From assembly GCF_024609765.1 (NCBI RefSeq), contig NZ_JANFDG010000035.1, forward strand, positions 1 through 51,624: 51,624 bases of DNA. Reading direction: 5' to 3'. The DNA comes from Shinella pollutisoli (GTDB lineage Bacteria; Pseudomonadota; Alphaproteobacteria; Rhizobiales; Rhizobiaceae). The notes under the pieces are model-generated. The model was not told the DNA's origin. It did not search any database and saw only the letters and a program-made list of their open reading frames with translations. The translations under genes and the position numbers were made by a program. How positions within the stretch are numbered: the first letter of the stretch is position 1; the number at the start of each line of letters is the position of its first letter. Below are positions 8,479-20,341 of this stretch, in pieces.

Positions 8479-8530
8479 GCGGGACACCCTTCCCCAACGA
8501 AGGCGGCGTTGTGCCTACCTAACGTTTTGA
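8479..8530. other. Host leader RNA segment and attL junction (serC leader suspected)
   Basis: Downstream of the promoter a small hairpin (CCTTC, loop CCCAAC, GAAGG) is followed by GGCGGCGTTGTGCCTACC, where the integrase stop codon begins. In rhizobial genomes I recall the gene order glmM, outer-membrane gene, serC, serA, and a cis-regulatory serC leader RNA is known in alphaproteobacteria. The prophage therefore appears to have integrated in that leader. The att core cannot be defined because attR is outside the window. Confidence 0.45.
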
Positions 8531-9531
8531 TTTATCTCCTTTAATTCACGTTCATCATTGTCGCGTGTCTCTGACGTGTCAGTCAGGAGATTTGCAAGCC
8601 TTTTGTCCTCCTTCGCGTGCCCGTAGGTCTGGAAGACGTGTTGCGGCGATTTCCAGCCGCCCAGCTTGGCAACCGTGATCGGATCGACGCCCTTGTGTAG
8701 AAGGGTCGTAGCGAAGCCGTGTCGGCACGAATGGAACGATAGGGGCTTGTGCTTCTTCATGGCCCCGCGCCGGAGGACCTTGTTCCATTGCGGCTTCACC
8801 GTGTCGCGCGATGAGTATTTGAATACCTTCTCCTCCGGGTTCCTGTTGCTCTCGATATTGGCTATTGCAGCAACGAGAGCAGGCGGCATGTGAGCAACAC
8901 GCTCTGATCCTATCTTGGTCTCCCTGATCAAGACCGTTGCCGACGACAGGTCTACATCTCTCCACAGAACCTCTACCGCTTCGCCGACGCGCGCGCCGGT
9001 CAGGAACATGAAGCAGCACAGTGCGCCGAGGTGCGCATTTGCATGCGCCATGAAATCCTGAACCCATCCCCATGTCGCCGGTGTCTTCTTCTTCGATACG
9101 ACGGGGAATCGCTTCACCTTCAGATGAGGGCAAAGCTCCATCTCAGCCGCGAAGTTGATGATCGCCTGCGTCGGGGCTATGACCTGTCGATTGCGCGTTG
9201 CAGCGGAGGCTTTCGGATAGAGCGCAATCGCAGCCTTGTGGACGTGACCGGCCTTTATGTCCGAGACAAGCGTGTCCTGCCAGTAGTTCTCGATCTTCTC
9301 AAGGAAGCGCGTGGGTTTCTGCGCCTGGCGGTAGAGGATGGCGGCTTGGGCGAACGTCAGGACCGCTGCCGGTCCATCGAAATGACCTTTCCATTGCTTG
9401 TCTTCGAGATCCGAGACGAAGCGCTCGGCTGCTGCTTTCTTCGTAGTTCTTGTAGAGCCGCGAAGTCGCCGACCGGCAACCGTGCCCCGGTAGTGCCAGA
9501 TTTTGCCGCGCTTGTAGAGGGTGAGGGGCAT
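8515..9531 (-). CDS. int: Tyrosine-type site-specific integrase
   Basis: A 338-residue phage integrase that recombines attP and attB. The catalytic set is visible: Arg181 in TGARVGEAVE, a candidate Lys206 in the beta-turn, HxxR in FHSCRHG (His267, Arg270), Trp293 in GGWKS replacing the third histidine, and the nucleophile Tyr303 in QTYGHA. The N-terminal 60 residues form an arm-binding type domain (WHYRGTVAGRRLRGSTRTTK). It is the last gene of the early-left operon and its 5' end overlaps the excisionase by 175 bases. Its stop codon lies at the host junction. Confidence 0.95.
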   Translation of the reverse strand: MPLTLYKRGKIWHYRGTVAGRRLRGSTRTTKKAAAERFVSDLEDKQWKGHFDGPAAVLTFAQAAILYRQAQKPTRFLEKIENYWQDTLVSDIKAGHVHKAAIALYPKASAATRNRQVIAPTQAIINFAAEMELCPHLKVKRFPVVSKKKTPATWGWVQDFMAHANAHLGALCCFMFLTGARVGEAVEVLWRDVDLSSATVLIRETKIGSERVAHMPPALVAAIANIESNRNPEEKVFKYSSRDTVKPQWNKVLRRGAMKKHKPLSFHSCRHGFATTLLHKGVDPITVAKLGGWKSPQHVFQTYGHAKEDKRLANLLTDTSETRDNDERELKEINQNVR

Positions 9532-10227: not shown

Positions 10228-10580
10228 TCGCTTTCTCCTCCAGAAAGTGCGTTGCGGGAGGAGGGGACGGTTCCAGAAGATGATGGGGCGGCAAGGATGC
10301 GCTCGCCGCGCTGGTGAAGCATCATCGCGAAATTGGCGACGTCGATAGGGTCACCCTTTTCGACGTGCTCGCGAAGCATCTGGGAAAGGAACAGAGCGGA
10401 GCAGGCCTCCTTGTCCTCCCATCCGCCGCGACCCTCGGCACGCTTCTTCGCCAGCTTCGCCTTCATCGCGATAGCAAAGCGATCAACGGCTATGGCGTCG
10501 GGGTGATTGCCTCCTATGGCCGATGGCAATCTGGCGGGGCTCGGAGATTTTTGCGGCACGCGAGGAAGATGCTTTTTCAT
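10224..10580 (-). CDS. Hypothetical phage protein, possible MazG-like nucleotide pyrophosphohydrolase relative
   Basis: 118 residues. The core AMKAKLAKKRAEGRGGW, then LSQMLREHVEKGDPIDVANF and AMMLHQRGERI, resembles a module widespread in phages of enterics and rhizobia. The arrangement LAxKRxxGRGGW ... DVANF resembles the C-terminal part of dATP/dGTP pyrophosphohydrolase-type phage proteins, but the metal-binding glutamates cannot be confirmed. The function remains open. Both ends overlap neighbours by 4 bases. Confidence 0.65.
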   Translation of the reverse strand: MKKHLPRVPQKSPSPARLPSAIGGNHPDAIAVDRFAIAMKAKLAKKRAEGRGGWEDKEACSALFLSQMLREHVEKGDPIDVANFAMMLHQRGERILAAPSSSGTVPSSRNALSGGESE

Positions 10581-10927
10581 TCCGCAGCTCCCGATTTAGC
10601 CGCGGCGTACCTCTTGCAGTCCTGCGCCGCCATTTCGTCACGGATTGCCCACCACTTCGGGCAAAGCCCCGTGGCGGCATCACCTGCGCTCTTGGCTTTC
10701 GGGCGGCCACAATCGGGGCAGGGCACCTCGACAGGTTTTTCGCGGACACGCGGCAAAGTGCCGAGCAGGTAGCAGTTCCATTTGACGCTTGCTTTTTCCC
10801 AGAAGGCGCGGGCCTTGTCCTCGTCATCGAACGTGGCGATGTCCTGCGATGGATCGTCAAAAAAAATGATGAATTGTCGCTTCGGCGCATTGCCGGGCTG
10901 GCACCAGATTTCCTGATGTTCGGTCAT
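10577..10927 (-). CDS. Hypothetical protein with zinc-knuckle-like cysteines
   Basis: 116 residues, starting MTEHQEIWCQPG. It contains FFDDPSQDIATFDDEDKARAF and a C-terminal CPDCGRP plus a later cysteine (TGLCPKW), consistent with a small zinc site. An upstream ATG in the same frame would add 35 very basic residues; the chosen start is favoured because it forms the same 4-base overlap seen throughout the operon. Function unknown. Confidence 0.68.
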   Translation of the reverse strand: MTEHQEIWCQPGNAPKRQFIIFFDDPSQDIATFDDEDKARAFWEKASVKWNCYLLGTLPRVREKPVEVPCPDCGRPKAKSAGDAATGLCPKWWAIRDEMAAQDCKRYAAAKSGAAE

Positions 10928-11517
10928 TCGGCGCACCCCTTCTGAGTAGTGACGGAACCGCTGCGCGTGGCGGCGAGGGCGGCGTCGGTCTCGTCCTGCG
11001 CCGCCTTGATGAATGCGCTTTGCGCGTCCCACATTGCGCGAGCTTCGTCATCAACGCGCATGGACCAATTGCCCTTAGCCCTCTCGCTATTCACGAGCGC
11101 AAGGCGGGTGTTGTAGGTCTCGGTGGCATCGACATATGCCTTACGGGCCGCGACGATCCGAGCGAAAGCCTCCGCGCTGTCCTCTCCTTCTCGGGAGATG
11201 GGTGGGGATTTCGGGCCAGAAAGTTCGAGCGCGGACTCCGGGTAGATCTGGACAGGGCCGTTTTCCACCGTATCCAACTGGACGCAGTAACCGGCCGGGG
11301 TTTGCGATGTGCTGTAGAATCCGACTACGCTGCCTTCCCACCATGATCCGCTGTGCTTGCGGACACGTTCGCCCATCTTGAACTTGCGGGGCTCTCCCGC
11401 CGGCACATCGACAAAGGCGGCGGTGAGAGCGGCGCGCATGGCCTTGGCGGGGATCATCACGTTCAGCGCGTCAGCCGCCAGCTGCGCGCGCTCGATCATC
11501 TCTTCAGTTACCTGCAT
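10924..11517 (-). CDS. Phage protein with a type II DHFR (DfrB/R67-like) SH3-fold domain
   Basis: 197 residues. Residues 46-99 align by eye with R67 dihydrofolate reductase: FKMGERVRKHSGSWWEG, GFYSTSQTPAGYCVQ and GPVQIYPESALE. The R67 active-site residues are kept: VQIY at 89-92 and the lysine equivalent to Lys32 at residue 54. A helical N-terminal segment and a long C-terminal helical region (from about 105) flank the domain, unlike the 78-residue R67 protein. Whether it reduces dihydrofolate, or uses the fold to bind something else, is unknown. The start has GGAGGTG upstream, making the 24-residue longer frame unlikely. Confidence 0.8.
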   Translation of the reverse strand: MQVTEEMIERAQLAADALNVMIPAKAMRAALTAAFVDVPAGEPRKFKMGERVRKHSGSWWEGSVVGFYSTSQTPAGYCVQLDTVENGPVQIYPESALELSGPKSPPISREGEDSAEAFARIVAARKAYVDATETYNTRLALVNSERAKGNWSMRVDDEARAMWDAQSAFIKAAQDETDAALAATRSGSVTTQKGCAE

Positions 11518-12052
11518 TTTCACCTCCGAGGAGTGCGAGGTCGGCAATTTCTCCGCAGGTGGCGAGCGCCTTGTAGACTGAACGACCAATAGGTTCGTTG
11601 CTCTCCTTCGTTTCGGCGGAGATCATTTCGAGAGCCGTTCGCAACTCCGAAATCTTGTCCTCAAGTATGATGATGCGGTCGGAGTATTCTCCGCGTTTCA
11701 TGGCGTGGATGTCCTTAAACGCCGTCATGTTCTCAAGTTGCTCGCGCAGCTCCGCATTCTCCCGCTGCAACGCCTCTGCCTGGCGGGCGATGGCGAGGAC
11801 TTCACGCATGGCGACAGGGTTGCAGGCGGCGATGTAGGCGGCGTTGGCTCGATCCTCATATGGCAGCAGGTTTCCCTTCGATGCAGATGCGATAATCCGG
11901 GGCTCAGGGACTTTTTCACGCCATTTTCCATCATGGTGCTCAATGTCGTCGGCGTGCCAGACCATGTCGAAAGGACCAAGTATCCACTCTCCCGGCGTCA
12001 CGCCTTCCATCGCCTTCTCTATTGCCTCTATGGCGGATACTGGGGAGGTCAT
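11504..12052 (-). CDS. Ea22-like phage protein
   Basis: 182 residues. DRANAAYIAACNPVAMREVL is the signature of the Ea22/Ead-type accessory proteins of lambdoid early-left operons. A coiled coil follows (LQRENAELREQLENM and a second heptad run near ILEDKISELRTALEM). Role unknown; these genes are dispensable modules in known phages. Its start overlaps the upstream gene by 4 bases. Confidence 0.72.
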   Translation of the reverse strand: MTSPVSAIEAIEKAMEGVTPGEWILGPFDMVWHADDIEHHDGKWREKVPEPRIIASASKGNLLPYEDRANAAYIAACNPVAMREVLAIARQAEALQRENAELREQLENMTAFKDIHAMKRGEYSDRIIILEDKISELRTALEMISAETKESNEPIGRSVYKALATCGEIADLALLGGENAGN

Positions 12053-12396
12053 AGCGGCACCCCGACTTTGCGGAACACGTTCTCGATCCGACCGCGCACC
12101 TTGCCAAAGGTCTGGCAGAGTTCGCCGTCACGCGTTCTAGCGCTGCCGTGGATGCGATTGAAGGCGAAGGCCAAGGCAGTGTACGCCTCGCGCAACGTGG
12201 CCAACGTTTCGTCGTGGGCATTGACGGCCTTCACGATCAGTTCGGCGTCAGCCGCGCGCGTATCGCAATTTGCTTGATAGTCCTCCTCGTCTTGAAGCGT
12301 GGTCGCCACAATCTGCCGGTCAGGCCCGAGGATAAGGGTTTCATCCGGCGAGTTGGTGTTCCACGGCGTCGGCGTATGCTTGACGTTCTCACCCAT
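12049..12396 (-). CDS. Hypothetical phage protein
   Basis: 115 residues starting MGENVKHTPTPW. The segment AADAELIVKAVNAHDETLAT is a motif often seen in small phage early proteins next to Ea22-like genes. It then has a helical C-terminus. No enzymatic motif visible. Overlaps neighbours on both sides. Confidence 0.68.
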   Translation of the reverse strand: MGENVKHTPTPWNTNSPDETLILGPDRQIVATTLQDEEDYQANCDTRAADAELIVKAVNAHDETLATLREAYTALAFAFNRIHGSARTRDGELCQTFGKVRGRIENVFRKVGVPL

Positions 12397-12739
12397 TGGA
12401 GGAGCCTTTCTGCTGAAGAGCGCGGAGGGTGGCGAGGCAGATGAAACGCGGTAGCATTTGCGGGACTTGGTGCCCTTCCCAGCCGCCGCGCTCGTACATA
12501 AGCTCCTTAGCCGCCGAGAGAATCGACATGCAGCGGCCCGGCAGCACTCGCTCTGCCAGAGATACGGCGGCGTCGATGGAGATGGTGTAGCGACCGATTA
12601 CGTCCGATTTCAAGTAGTCGATTGACCACCATTCACGATCAGGAATGATGCCGAGTGCCATGGCAATCTCGGTATCCATTTTCCGGCTCGGCCCTTCCGC
12701 CGCTTCCAGTCGTGCGATGAGTGAGGACAGGTCGCTCAT
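12389..12739 (-). CDS. Hypothetical phage protein
   Basis: 116 residues. The opening LSSLIARLEAAEGPSRKMD, with later AERVLPGR and PRFICLATLRAL, is characteristic of a protein common in rhizobial and other proteobacterial prophages. No catalytic residues are recognisable. Overlapping start and stop with its neighbours. Confidence 0.7.
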   Translation of the reverse strand: MSDLSSLIARLEAAEGPSRKMDTEIAMALGIIPDREWWSIDYLKSDVIGRYTISIDAAVSLAERVLPGRCMSILSAAKELMYERGGWEGHQVPQMLPRFICLATLRALQQKGSSNG

Positions 12740-13392
12740 GCTTCACCGCCTGACTTGCCGATAGGGCAATTTCGCTCGGCTTGGCGTTCCTGATAGATCC
12801 AGTCGGGAGCAAGGGAGTGATTGATCGAATTCCCGCGAAGCGCATAGCGGTGGCGCGAGACGCTAACTTTGACGAAAGTCCGCACGCCGGGCTTGATGCT
12901 CGTATCGACCTTGTGAAGTACGGTTTGGTCGAGGCGAAGCAGGTGCTTCACCGGGTACGTCCGATAATGAGCGGAACGCCGCACGCAAAGCTCGTCCATT
13001 TCGGAAAGCGAGGAACTGTGATCGGCACTGAATGCGTGCCGCTGTCCGTCGTCAAAAAAGATCGTCGGGTTGGCATCACACCAGATGTAATTCAGATCAT
13101 CGGTCAGGAAGCCGTCACTATGCCAGCCGGGGCGATTGCCGGGGTTCTCGGCCGTCGCCCACAGCGTTTTAGCCGTGAGATAGATATAGCTTTCGAACGC
13201 GCGGTCAGAGCAGTCCGACATTGCGGCGCTGACCAGTGGGTAGAATTGCTCAAGATTGGCTGGGAGAACCGGCGCTACGTGTCCTGCCAGTTTGATGGGG
13301 CAATACAGCCAGAACATCATCTCGACCGGGGAAAGATCGACAAGCCCGAGATCGATAGGGGGAGCGCCATAGATCGCGTCAGTCCGCTGCAT
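12736..13392 (-). CDS. Probable Fe(II)/2-oxoglutarate-dependent dioxygenase-like protein
   Basis: 218 residues. The central part carries the spacing of the double-stranded beta-helix dioxygenases: HxD in PGWHSDGF (His91, Asp93), a distal histidine in TVLHKVD (His160) and an arginine 11 residues on (GVRTFVKV, Arg171) where 2-oxoglutarate would bind. Strands between (LNYIWCDANPTIFF) fit the fold. The substrate is unknown; phage members of this superfamily can act on DNA bases or proteins. The start is taken from the short overlap with the upstream gene; the frame is open much further 5' but reads as non-coding. Confidence 0.65.
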   Translation of the reverse strand: MQRTDAIYGAPPIDLGLVDLSPVEMMFWLYCPIKLAGHVAPVLPANLEQFYPLVSAAMSDCSDRAFESYIYLTAKTLWATAENPGNRPGWHSDGFLTDDLNYIWCDANPTIFFDDGQRHAFSADHSSSLSEMDELCVRRSAHYRTYPVKHLLRLDQTVLHKVDTSIKPGVRTFVKVSVSRHRYALRGNSINHSLAPDWIYQERQAERNCPIGKSGGEA

Positions 13393-13780
13393 GGCTGACC
13401 TCCTCGTAGATGTAGAGGCCAAGTTCCTGCTGGACGAAGACCGCGCAGAAGCCGATATACTTGATGTTGATGTCATCCGGGATTTTGCCGCCGCACTTGA
13501 AGGCCCAGAAATGGCGTTCCTCGTCTGGAACATCAGTGCGAACCTCTGCCCACAGCCAGAACATGCCACCCTGATCCGCCATGCGGATGATCTTCGCGCC
13601 GATCGGCAGGCGCATAGTGAAGCGCTCCAGCACCGGCATCTGGTATTTGTAGATGACCCTGCCTGACGCGTTGGACATCTTCTTGCCGCGCGTCTTCTCG
13701 TCCCACTGGTCGGACTGGAGGCCAGCGGTCCATGAATCATCAACGGGGACCGTCCCGCCGTCTTCTATCTTCTTGGTCAT
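13379..13780 (-). CDS. DUF7352-like phage protein
   Basis: 133 residues. MPVLERFTMRLPIGAKIIRM and MFWLWAEVRTD are typical of a small beta-rich phage family, with a hydrophobic C-terminal strand pair (YIGFCAVFVQQELGLYIYE). Function unknown. The start forms a 4-base overlap with the nuclease-like gene upstream; an internal ATG (MSNASG) is possible. Confidence 0.7.
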   Translation of the reverse strand: MTKKIEDGGTVPVDDSWTAGLQSDQWDEKTRGKKMSNASGRVIYKYQMPVLERFTMRLPIGAKIIRMADQGGMFWLWAEVRTDVPDEERHFWAFKCGGKIPDDINIKYIGFCAVFVQQELGLYIYEEVSHAAD

Positions 13781-14205
13781 GCGGAATCCCTCGTAGGATA
13801 GCGTCCAGCGGCAGCGAGACCGGAAAGAATCCGTGCCGTTGCGCGCTCGGTTGCTTCGTATCGGTCGTAATCGTTGAAGATGCCGAAGAGCGTCAGCGCG
13901 AGAAGGTGCGGCTCTATGCCGATGCCCCTCCAGTACGCTTCCTCGTTCATGCTGTGCTGTCTGGCATGCTCTTCCGGGCAAAGGGGCAGCGCGAAACGAT
14001 CCGGGGCTTTCGTGCCCTTCGCCCTTCCGTAGTGTCCGTGCCATGGAGAGGCATAGGATAGATGAGCCGCTTGCACTCCGGTCCTGCCGGTAACACAGCA
14101 CGGCAGTTCGTGGAGCCACGCTAGATAGTCGGCACGCTTTGCCGGACGCTTCTTCGGCGGTTCGGGATCGCGCTGGAAATATGCGAGGTTGATGCGGGCC
14201 ATCAC
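13777..14205 (-). CDS. HNH-type (DUF968/Ref-like) phage nuclease
   Basis: 142 residues. The zinc/HNH-like core is visible: WLHELPCCVTGRTGVQAAHL, then DRFALPLCPEEHARQHS. This matches the DUF968/Ref group of phage-encoded HNH proteins; P1 Ref is a RecA-dependent nuclease. Position in the recombination operon a few genes downstream of Bet makes a role in recombination or processing plausible. Starts with two adjacent methionine codons; the second alone would also overlap the upstream stop. Confidence 0.75.
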   Translation of the reverse strand: MMARINLAYFQRDPEPPKKRPAKRADYLAWLHELPCCVTGRTGVQAAHLSYASPWHGHYGRAKGTKAPDRFALPLCPEEHARQHSMNEEAYWRGIGIEPHLLALTLFGIFNDYDRYEATERATARILSGLAAAGRYPTRDSA

Positions 14206-14396
14206 ACCCTCCTCAGGTCATCGAGGACGGCCTTGCGCATGTCCTTGCGGGCACGGCCGATGTCCTGGGTGCAGCCGCGCCGCTTGGCGATGGCATAGGC
14301 ATCTGCCGCACGACGCCAGTTCGGGAGCTTGCGGAGCGTCGGATGGCTCTTGCGCCACCACCACATGATATCGCTGATGATGTGGGAGAGGGTCAT
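14202..14396 (-). CDS. Small basic hypothetical protein
   Basis: 64 residues, strongly basic, tryptophan-rich N-terminus (IMWWWRKSH) and helical arginine/lysine-rich C-terminus. It could bind nucleic acid; no family recognised. Both ends overlap neighbouring genes by 4 bases, which supports that it is translated. Confidence 0.65.
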   Translation of the reverse strand: MTLSHIISDIMWWWRKSHPTLRKLPNWRRAADAYAIAKRRGCTQDIGRARKDMRKAVLDDLRRV

Positions 14397-14910: not shown

Positions 14911-15837
14911 CTAGCCCGCCATCAGCACGTTGTTACCGGCAATTTTGGCCTCAACCGCCTTTTTGAGGTAGGCAGCATCGCCGGGCGCGCGCGCCCAGAA
15001 TTCGCGCAGAGGTTCCCGGTTCGCATCGCGCCACTTCGCAACCTTCTCCGGCGTCTCGTTCTTGATGAATTCCATCGCGCGGTCGGCAAGCTGTCCGACC
15101 GGAACATTCTCCAGCGTCCAGTTATCGCCCCAAGTGATGGTGATGGCGTCCTTGGCCCCGGCTACTTTGAGCCGGTGCTCTTCGCGCTCGTGCTCGACGA
15201 TTTCCGTCGCGGAAAGGTCAAGCACCTTCGCGCGGTCCATTTCTTCCTCACCGTAAAGGCCGGTGAACTGTTCCGGCCACCCGGCGCGAAGAGCCTGCAT
15301 CTCGGCGCACTTCGAAATCATGAGCCTGGGCATGCGGCACCAGTTGCCCGAGCTATCGAGAACCTTCTTTCCGCTCGGCTTCCGCTTCCCAGCCTCCTGG
15401 TCGTAGACCCATTCGTCAGATACGGGCGCAAACTCTTCCCAGAATGCTTGGCCGACAACCTCGTACCAGTCGCTGGTCTTCGGGTCCTGCTTCCAGAGAT
15501 AGACCGTTGCCGAAACGATGCCCTGAGGGTTGAGCGGCGAAATCATCGCCTTGTCCGTTTCGTATGTCGTCGGCTTGGACGCAGCACGATAATCACCGCA
15601 GCGCTGCGCAATGACACGCTGACCGTCGCGAGTGATGATGATCGTCAGCTTTCGCTTGTCGGGCTTGTCCTTAGCGAACACCATCGGGATGATCTGGCCG
15701 AGGAATGGATCCAGTCCCTTGGCGCGCGCCACCTCCATAAAAAGATTGAATTCGTCGGCGTTGCAGTCCTTCGCGACGGTGTCCTTGACGAGCGCGATTT
15801 GTTTCGGAGACAAGTCAAATTTCGTGAGGGCGCTCAT
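14911..15837 (-). CDS. bet: Phage recombination protein Bet (RecT family)
   Basis: 308-residue single-strand annealing protein. It anneals complementary strands during phage recombination and replication. Family blocks: FMEVARAKGLDPFLGQI, ITRDGQRVIAQRCGDYRA, then GTVYL-type strand and RMPRLMISKCAEMQALRAGW, which is highly characteristic of Bet/RecT. The expected partner exonuclease (YqaJ or RecE type) is not recognised in the operon. Sits between the Gp157-like gene and the conserved 171-residue gene. Confidence 0.92.
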   Translation of the reverse strand: MSALTKFDLSPKQIALVKDTVAKDCNADEFNLFMEVARAKGLDPFLGQIIPMVFAKDKPDKRKLTIIITRDGQRVIAQRCGDYRAASKPTTYETDKAMISPLNPQGIVSATVYLWKQDPKTSDWYEVVGQAFWEEFAPVSDEWVYDQEAGKRKPSGKKVLDSSGNWCRMPRLMISKCAEMQALRAGWPEQFTGLYGEEEMDRAKVLDLSATEIVEHEREEHRLKVAGAKDAITITWGDNWTLENVPVGQLADRAMEFIKNETPEKVAKWRDANREPLREFWARAPGDAAYLKKAVEAKIAGNNVLMAG

Positions 15838-15838
15838 G

Positions 15839-16363
15839 TCACTTCCTCCGCAGCGTCAGGCTGTAACTGCCGTTGTCGAGCGTGGCGCCGGCGACGGTCT
15901 TGTTTTCCTTGAGGTCGGAAAGTAGGGTTTTCTTGTCGAGCTTCGGCGCGGGTCGCTCCTGCTCGATCCAATAGTCGGCGGGAATGTCCGCTTCATTCGT
16001 GATGATGAGGCCCGGCGCGCGCTTCGATAGTGTGATGGTGGCGGTCGGCAGCCGAAGCGTCGTTTGCTCTGTCGCAATCATCGCCTGTTCGATGGCGGCG
16101 CGGATACGGTCGTTCCGCTTCTTCGTTGCCGAAACGCGGCCCTGAATTTGTTCGATCTTGGCTTCGCCACCTGCAATGAGAACGTCGTTCTCATCGATTT
16201 CGTTCAGCGCCTCGCCAATGGCTTCGAGAAGGTCTGTCTCGCCCTCGATGGTGTCAGCGATCAGATCAACGTCATCGCCGTCTCCGCCGGCGCGAATGTT
16301 TGCCAGAAGTTTTTTGGCGGCTTCGGTGTTGCGCGCGATCATGTGTTCGGCGGGTGACATCAA
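15839..16363 (-). CDS. Siphovirus Gp157-like protein
   Basis: 174 residues. The long helical first half (EAIGEALNEIDENDVLIAGG, then IEQIQGRVSATKKRNDRIRA) followed by a beta-rich second half (LPTATITLSKRAPGLIITNE, IPADYW) is the Gp157 family pattern. Members are early siphovirus proteins of unknown biochemical role, often paired with recT. Starts with a double methionine; translation is coupled to the small gene upstream. Confidence 0.85.
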   Translation of the reverse strand: MMSPAEHMIARNTEAAKKLLANIRAGGDGDDVDLIADTIEGETDLLEAIGEALNEIDENDVLIAGGEAKIEQIQGRVSATKKRNDRIRAAIEQAMIATEQTTLRLPTATITLSKRAPGLIITNEADIPADYWIEQERPAPKLDKKTLLSDLKENKTVAGATLDNGSYSLTLRRK

Positions 16364-20051: not shown

Positions 20052-20341
20052 GCACCAACACCAAAGCCTCCCCAGCCGAATTCGTAAAGACGGCCGAACA
20101 AGTCGTTGATCGGATTTCGAGGACGCACATATGGCAAGGCGACTGTGTGGCCGATGTCGCCAAAGCCATCCACGACGCCGTTATGGCGGAGAGGGAGCGG
20201 TGCGCCCGTTTGATCGAGGAAGGATATGAGCGCGGCATAGCGACTAAGCGCGATAGATGCGCGCACAGCAAATTCGAATGGGAGGACTGCGACGAATGCG
20301 CAGTCGCCGCCATCCGCGCCGCACCGAAGGCGGAGGGCTGA
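20048..20341 (+). CDS. Hypothetical phage protein
   Basis: 97 residues, helical, with DVAKAIHDAVMAERERCARL, a motif common in phage early proteins, and a C-terminal Cys/His cluster (CAHSKFEWEDCDEC) that might bind zinc. Overlaps the upstream gene by 4 bases. Confidence 0.65.
   Translation: MSTNTKASPAEFVKTAEQVVDRISRTHIWQGDCVADVAKAIHDAVMAERERCARLIEEGYERGIATKRDRCAHSKFEWEDCDECAVAAIRAAPKAEG

Follow-up and report, generated by a model that had tools for sequence, protein, structure and literature searches.

Proteins of the DfrB type are the small enzymes behind high-level trimethoprim resistance, and their origin and native function are described as open in the available text of two articles (PMC9835603, PMC11662351). 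The locus presented here raises the question of why a phage gene carries a domain of this type and what the rest of that gene does. It lies in a 51,624-nt stretch of Shinella pollutisoli DNA (contig NZ_JANFDG010000035.1, positions 1 to 51,624), referred to here as the window. We propose, with a probability of about 0.7, that this accessory gene is a domain-exchange platform: four short DNA joints frame three slots, DfrB occupies slot B, a phage annealase would recombine the joints, and the DfrB module would act as a homotetrameric reductase. The swappable-slot architecture lay outside the view of an earlier note on this DNA, and it is a more telling feature than the DfrB homology.

Gene and prophage setting

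The gene and the neighbors needed to place it are the following.

8515..9531, minus strand: tyrosine phage integrase, at the far end of the leftward genes
10577..10927, minus strand: downstream gene, sharing an ATGA overlap with the 197-aa gene; phrog_27027
10924..11517, minus strand: DfrB-bearing gene, 197 aa; slot A helices, DfrB/R67-type SH3 domain, linker and long helical hairpin
11504..12052, minus strand: upstream gene, lying 14 nt over the start of the 197-aa gene, with mosaic patches inside
14911..15837, minus strand: RecT-family annealase, the presumed driver of joint recombination

The reading frame opens with ATG at 11517, just behind a Shine-Dalgarno-like GGAGGTG, and closes with TGA at 10926-10924, exactly where the earlier note had placed it. 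That note also called the product a phage early protein. The description is fair, since the gene lies between the integrase and the RecT/Gp157 genes (14911-16363), all on one strand, with the RecT gene 3.4 kb away. It is probably an accessory early gene of a Rhizobiaceae prophage whose host genus is probably Shinella.

The DfrB domain

11224..11385, minus strand: DfrB (PF06442) domain, residues 45-98; WQQLP subfamily; slot B

By sequence, this domain is truly related to R67/DfrB, the trimethoprim-insensitive enzyme, as the earlier note had claimed. Residues 45-98 match PF06442 at 1.1e-15 (57.6 bits against a curated cut-off of 25) and R67 chains at E ~1e-12. The nearest fold is the R67-like SH3 barrel, and the type II dihydrofolate reductase R67 is the nearest solved structure; a stronger similarity to another SH3 family, which that note had named among the findings that would speak against its interpretation, was looked for and not found. 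K32, W38, Y46, G64 and V66-Q67-I68-Y69 are kept relative to R67, among them the pore residues (Lys32 and Val-Gln-Ile-Tyr) to which attention had already been drawn. The changes are S65 to P, S59 to L, E58 to Q and A37 to W, with one residue inserted in the stretch ahead of G64. The extra N- and C-terminal regions reported earlier appear in a predicted monomer model as one helical hairpin on each side of the barrel, which itself has a pLDDT of 90-96. Two comparisons speak against counting it among the resistance enzymes themselves: the match to NCBIfam DfrB NF000331 (5e-18) reaches 64.8 bits, below the cut-off of 137, and the protein has 197 aa, not the ~78-aa single-domain form. Unlike R67, the window domain is embedded in a mosaic protein and carries WQQLP at positions 37/50/58/59/65, and its gene sits in a prophage operon, not in an integron cassette.

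Multidomain relatives have been described. The available text of one study (PMC9835603) reports DfrB-H homologues whose DfrB-like fold is accompanied by unrelated extra domains; two of these homologues come from phage genomes (Pseudomonas and Vibrio). Four of five tested gave trimethoprim resistance in Escherichia coli, including the one from the Vibrio phage; the Pseudomonas-phage homologue, H3, is not among them, and the H3 protein was not visible in that work. DfrB-H5, which has extra domains, is reported there to tetramerize and to reduce dihydrofolate. By homology to this published multidomain protein, the DfrB module of the window would assemble as a homotetramer, its K32/Q67/I68/Y69 pore would bind NADPH and a pterin or folate, and the pore would reduce dihydrofolate or a dihydropterin at least weakly; slots A and C would add helices around the tetramer. 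The subfamily, the exchange joints and the FolE-QueD-QueE link described below are features of the present analysis, as compared with the available part of PMC9835603.

Distribution and pore conservation

Within the genus, 3 of 21 genomes have PF06442; samples of the order and of the phylum gave 5 of 397 and 2 of 398, the second phylum match being below the cut-off, and the window's own genome is counted each time. The full protein (tblastn, E 0.01) matched 25 of 50,697 phage records, some of them duplicates of each other, and 98 of 72,556 plasmid records, where at least one match covers the C-terminal part only. A search of IMG/VR with an alignment of the domain gave 238 relatives, of which the best 80 were kept. 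Collapsing near-identical loci left 150 unique DfrB loci, drawn from 246 DfrB open reading frames (ORFs). None of the 246 holds two DfrB domains at E 1e-5; one domain per protein is what a homotetramer would allow. Ochrobactrum phage ZX86 (L019, 4656-6236) encodes a DfrB protein with an N terminus that looks membrane-like by eye, and an annotated macro-domain gene lies close downstream.

As judged from the aligned sequences, the pore residues are under purifying selection with both synonymous codons in use, a result that we present as new. Q67 is found in 150 of 150 unique loci (codons CAG in 98 and CAA in 52) and K32 in 148 of 149 (AAG in 82 and AAA in 66); Y69 is kept in 147 of 150 and W38 in 149 of 149. 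Positions 29, 31, 33 and 37, close to pore residues, vary widely. Only 18 of the 150 loci were found without motif patterns, and these have Q67 and Y69 in 18/18 and, where aligned, K32 in 16/17 and W38 in 17/17. Near-invariance that extends to the pattern-free loci argues for selection on the pore and not on the barrel alone. The available text of PMC9835603 assigns W38 to the tetramer interface and K32 to ligand binding. One locus (L009, 1489-1959) has Ser in place of K32 and retains VQIY; its C-terminal extension is unrelated to the other extensions.

Positions 37/50/58/59/65 change together. The pattern xLESS occurs in 131 loci, and 8 further loci retain E58-S59 with position 50 or 65 changed; WQQLP or YQQLP occurs in nine loci and near variants in two. 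The 11 rows with Q58 among the 150 unique loci, the window included, form one branch with a support of 97 in a quick tree built on few columns. We present this "WQQLP" subfamily, with the window domain in it, as new. Its changes at 37, 58, 59 and 65 may count against the proposed reading of the gene. Another WQQLP domain (L106, 7581-8180) follows an N-terminal part that resembles an HNH endonuclease by eye; Pfam at E 0.01 does not list HNH for that part.

In the same quick tree, R67 groups with phage domains L061, L063 and L069 (support 80-84), apart from the window's group. The suggestion in the earlier note that such phage proteins could be a reservoir for resistance genes thus gains from the place of R67 among phage domains, and loses as far as this protein is concerned: R67, to which the window's subfamily is 50% identical, lies outside that subfamily, so the window protein is unlikely to be the direct source. 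The reservoir idea for putative and phage DfrB homologues is already in print (PMC9835603, available text). Passages available from other reports mention DfrB2-like ORFs on four freshwater viral contigs (PMC7265639), eight dfrB candidates in lytic phages (PMC12466917) and dfrB6 in a phage bin (PMC10580818).

Possible pterin, folate and binding roles

What phage DfrB does for its carriers could be answered in two ways. A tentative answer, which we rate below even odds, is that it serves as an auxiliary pterin/folate reductase, acting on FolE-QueD-QueE pterins in some phages and elsewhere topping up tetrahydrofolate for thymidylate synthesis. Clear FolE/QueD/QueE relatives lie in 27 of the 150 unique DfrB loci, an association presented here as new; three more loci with only a distant FolE bring the number to 30, and in 26 of these DfrB is at most 150 bp from such a frame. 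Its position varies, after FolE, after QueD or before QueE. It is the immediate neighbor of one of the three genes in 22 of 27 loci. Drawing any gene of the locus at random would give 5.7, but the loci are centered on DfrB, and drawing only from the cluster span would give 17.5, so that the excess over that is weak (P 0.044). Pfam bears out FolE and QueD, assigning GTP cyclohydrolase I to 7 and PTPS to 7 among 95 neighbor proteins from seven loci; Radical_SAM was matched in 1 of the 95, and the gene that we take to be QueE otherwise owes its name to a motif.

In these loci, DfrB is short and stand-alone (59-64 aa in four loci), and the carriers look like one related phage group (L123-L165 and related IMG/VR loci), which counts against this answer. 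Searches that did not start from DfrB also temper the link: when the search starts from FolE (best 80 loci), 42 unique loci have the three genes together and only 8 of these hold DfrB, and a second set started from QueE (best 80 loci) gives 5 of 24. QueC, just over the cut-off, was found in 1 of 24 records, and QueF over the cut-off in 0 of 24. Among 50 chosen DfrB-bearing records, FolE is present in 2, ThyA in 7 and ThyX in 1, with the ThyX of L088 and a ThyA of L070 within 2 kb of DfrB; on the other side, 42 of the 50, some of them fragments, have no thymidylate synthase. The window gave no match to the FolE, QueD, QueE or Thy queries. A pterin role for phage DfrB is thus plausible but not general, and the window shows no sign of it. 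The phage 7-deazaguanine pathway FolE-QueD-QueE (PMC6884629) would be the one to which the neighbors of stand-alone DfrB belong; the available part of that article has 0 occurrences of DfrB, DHFR or dihydrofolate. No prior report of a DfrB-FolE/Que link was found in one library of open-access literature, which is weak evidence of novelty.

The other answer, that the domain is a binding or oligomerization module only, is slightly less probable. Dihydrofolate reduction would then be incidental, and the tetramer would gather partner domains or its pore would capture a nucleotide, for example as a counter-defense sponge. Fusion is indeed promiscuous, as 45 of 63 extensions of at least 30 aa are unrelated to all the others at E 0.01, and Lar is among the fusion partners (2/52). 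An Acb2/Tad1 hairpin domain, of a counter-defense family, occurs in one DfrB neighbor (1/142, E 1.3e-12), and the 140 first neighbors include one Dam, one C5 methylase and one Vsr protein. Against this, the sponge idea is based on that one neighbor, and the residues that bind NADPH and dihydrofolate in R67 are nearly invariant. Moreover, in the first set of 107 proteins, with starts chosen by rule, 45 exceed 120 aa but 47 are no longer than 80 aa, which leaves almost no partner to gather. The locus of the neighbor with Acb2/Tad1 is in alignment A10 (L159-L193, L053-L088).

Joints and slots

We return to the proposal that the 197-aa gene is a domain-exchange platform. Its joints J0-J3 and the slots A and C on either side of the DfrB slot are as follows.

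11512..11537, minus strand: joint J0, with the Shine-Dalgarno sequence and start codon
11421..11511, minus strand: slot A, predicted helical hairpin TEEMIERA...AMRAALTAAF
11390..11420, minus strand: joint J1, FVDVPAGEP; SALVDVPVEPVA in relatives
11169..11208, minus strand: joint J2, PPISREGEDSAE
10984..11168, minus strand: slot C, predicted coiled helical hairpin
10924..10983, minus strand: joint J3, LAATRSGSxTT, stop codon and ribosome-binding site of the next gene

Eighteen nucleotides of the tail were searched in viral contigs and fetched 23. Six of these (L429, L434, L441, L446, L447 and L448) show an in-frame gene tail with the upstream linker, and 17 do not show the gene. A seventh contig, L002, was found by PF06442 without the use of any joint; J0 and J1 were not used for fetching. 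The window gene gave 25 blastn matches to the seven contigs, in the joints only. Of these, 24 are colinear; the remaining one, further along in L447, repeats the final 19 nt of the tail. Codon-shuffled genes gave 0.015 matches each (200 shuffles).

J3 matches at 89-100% over 29-55 nt in 7/7 contigs; because six of the seven were fetched by a piece of it, J3 is there by construction and is no evidence. J2 matches at 92.5-100% over 23-40 nt in 7/7 contigs and J1 at 90-95% over 21-31 nt in 6/7, the exception being L429. J0 is identical at 25/26 nt in L434 and at 26/26 in L447 and L448, and its match extends to 34/34 in L446; blastn found none in L002, L429 or L441, and this presence in 4/7 contigs counts against an exchange scaffold. 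Median DNA identity is 0.85 for J1 (7 proteins), 0.96 for J2 (8) and 0.97 for J3 (8), and 0.51 and 0.57 for the modules, at the level of shuffled modules (0.55, at most 0.62). In these seven to eight proteins, DNA conservation is thus higher in the joints than in the modules. Because the set was assembled with J-motif patterns applied to protein sequences, the joint identity partly reflects that choice; the codon identity does not.

The slots differ in content. Slot B holds DfrB in the window, HNH_3 with AP2 (AP2 below the cut-off) in L434 and NUMOD4 with HNH_3 in L448, all by Pfam, which also places a Lar zinc ribbon N-terminal of J1 in L434 and L441 and finds no family over the cut-off in L446, L447 or L429. 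The same-genus DfrB gene of L002 shares two near-identical stretches with the window gene (23/23 and 34/36 nt), but carries its DfrB domain at another place, in slot C; this domain is 74% identical to that of the window over the 82 nt that align. A relative of slot C without DfrB is an open frame in a prophage-like region of Sinorhizobium meliloti pSymB (P0002). The same module also occurs with different partners across a joint: L434 and L447 have a common J2-J3 module (0.94) and differ before J2. The J2-J3 modules of L441 and L448 are plainly alike in protein and weakly so in DNA, at 0.68, hardly above the 0.66 of the pair L441/L447; shuffled modules reach 0.62. We present this candidate scaffold of joints and slots around mostly unrelated modules as new.

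Annealases of phages, among them the RecT encoded by this prophage, would recombine the joints and thereby shift domains between proteins in frame. According to the available text of PMC3945230, Rad52-like phage recombinases act on short, diverged homology, with a minimum of 30 bp given for Redbeta, and some joint matches (21-29 nt) are shorter than that. As in the phage mosaicism described there, short homology would guide segment exchange here, but the joints lie within a single reading frame and flank individual protein domains.

Joint conservation could instead serve translation coupling, not recombination. It is improbable that the joints are ordinary conserved linkers or translation signals of a fast-evolving homologous gene family: ribosome-binding, start and stop signals do lie inside J0 and J3, and the genes overlap, but the internal J1 and J2 keep their DNA identity around modules mostly at shuffled background, one module pair recurs in different contexts, and slot B changes its Pfam content.

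In lambdoid phages, "boundary sequences" are known as short homologies that direct the exchange of segments. No prior report of joint-framed domain exchange was found in one library of open-access literature, again weak evidence. If the exchange reading holds, the joint scaffold would let phages remodel their proteins one domain at a time. The joints and slots suggest a route for DfrB-type domains between phage proteins, and in-frame exchange suggests how DfrB could be extracted. Phages are suggested as a concrete source pool by the nesting of R67 there in the quick tree; the pore conservation suggests selection in phages with no sign of a drug context; and the FolE-QueD-QueE loci suggest pterins as a testable class of native substrates. 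A wider and more speculative picture, to which we give less than even odds, is that Rhizobiaceae phages keep a standing exchange platform with joints approximately long enough for RecT/Red-type annealing, swapping DfrB, homing-endonuclease-like HNH/NUMOD4/AP2, Lar and helical modules in frame, and that DfrB entered the resistome from such a phage pool, its ancestral task being pterin chemistry. A joint-like patchwork may extend across the whole early operon.

Elsewhere in the early region (11741-12753, 13755-14207 and 20157-20208), patches of 36-100 nt are 82-100% identical to L434, L448, L429 and L441, and between many of them there is no match at E 1e-10. In the comparison with L434 and L448, patches of 36-97 nt sit at gene edges and inside genes, and one is longer, 437 nt at 93%.
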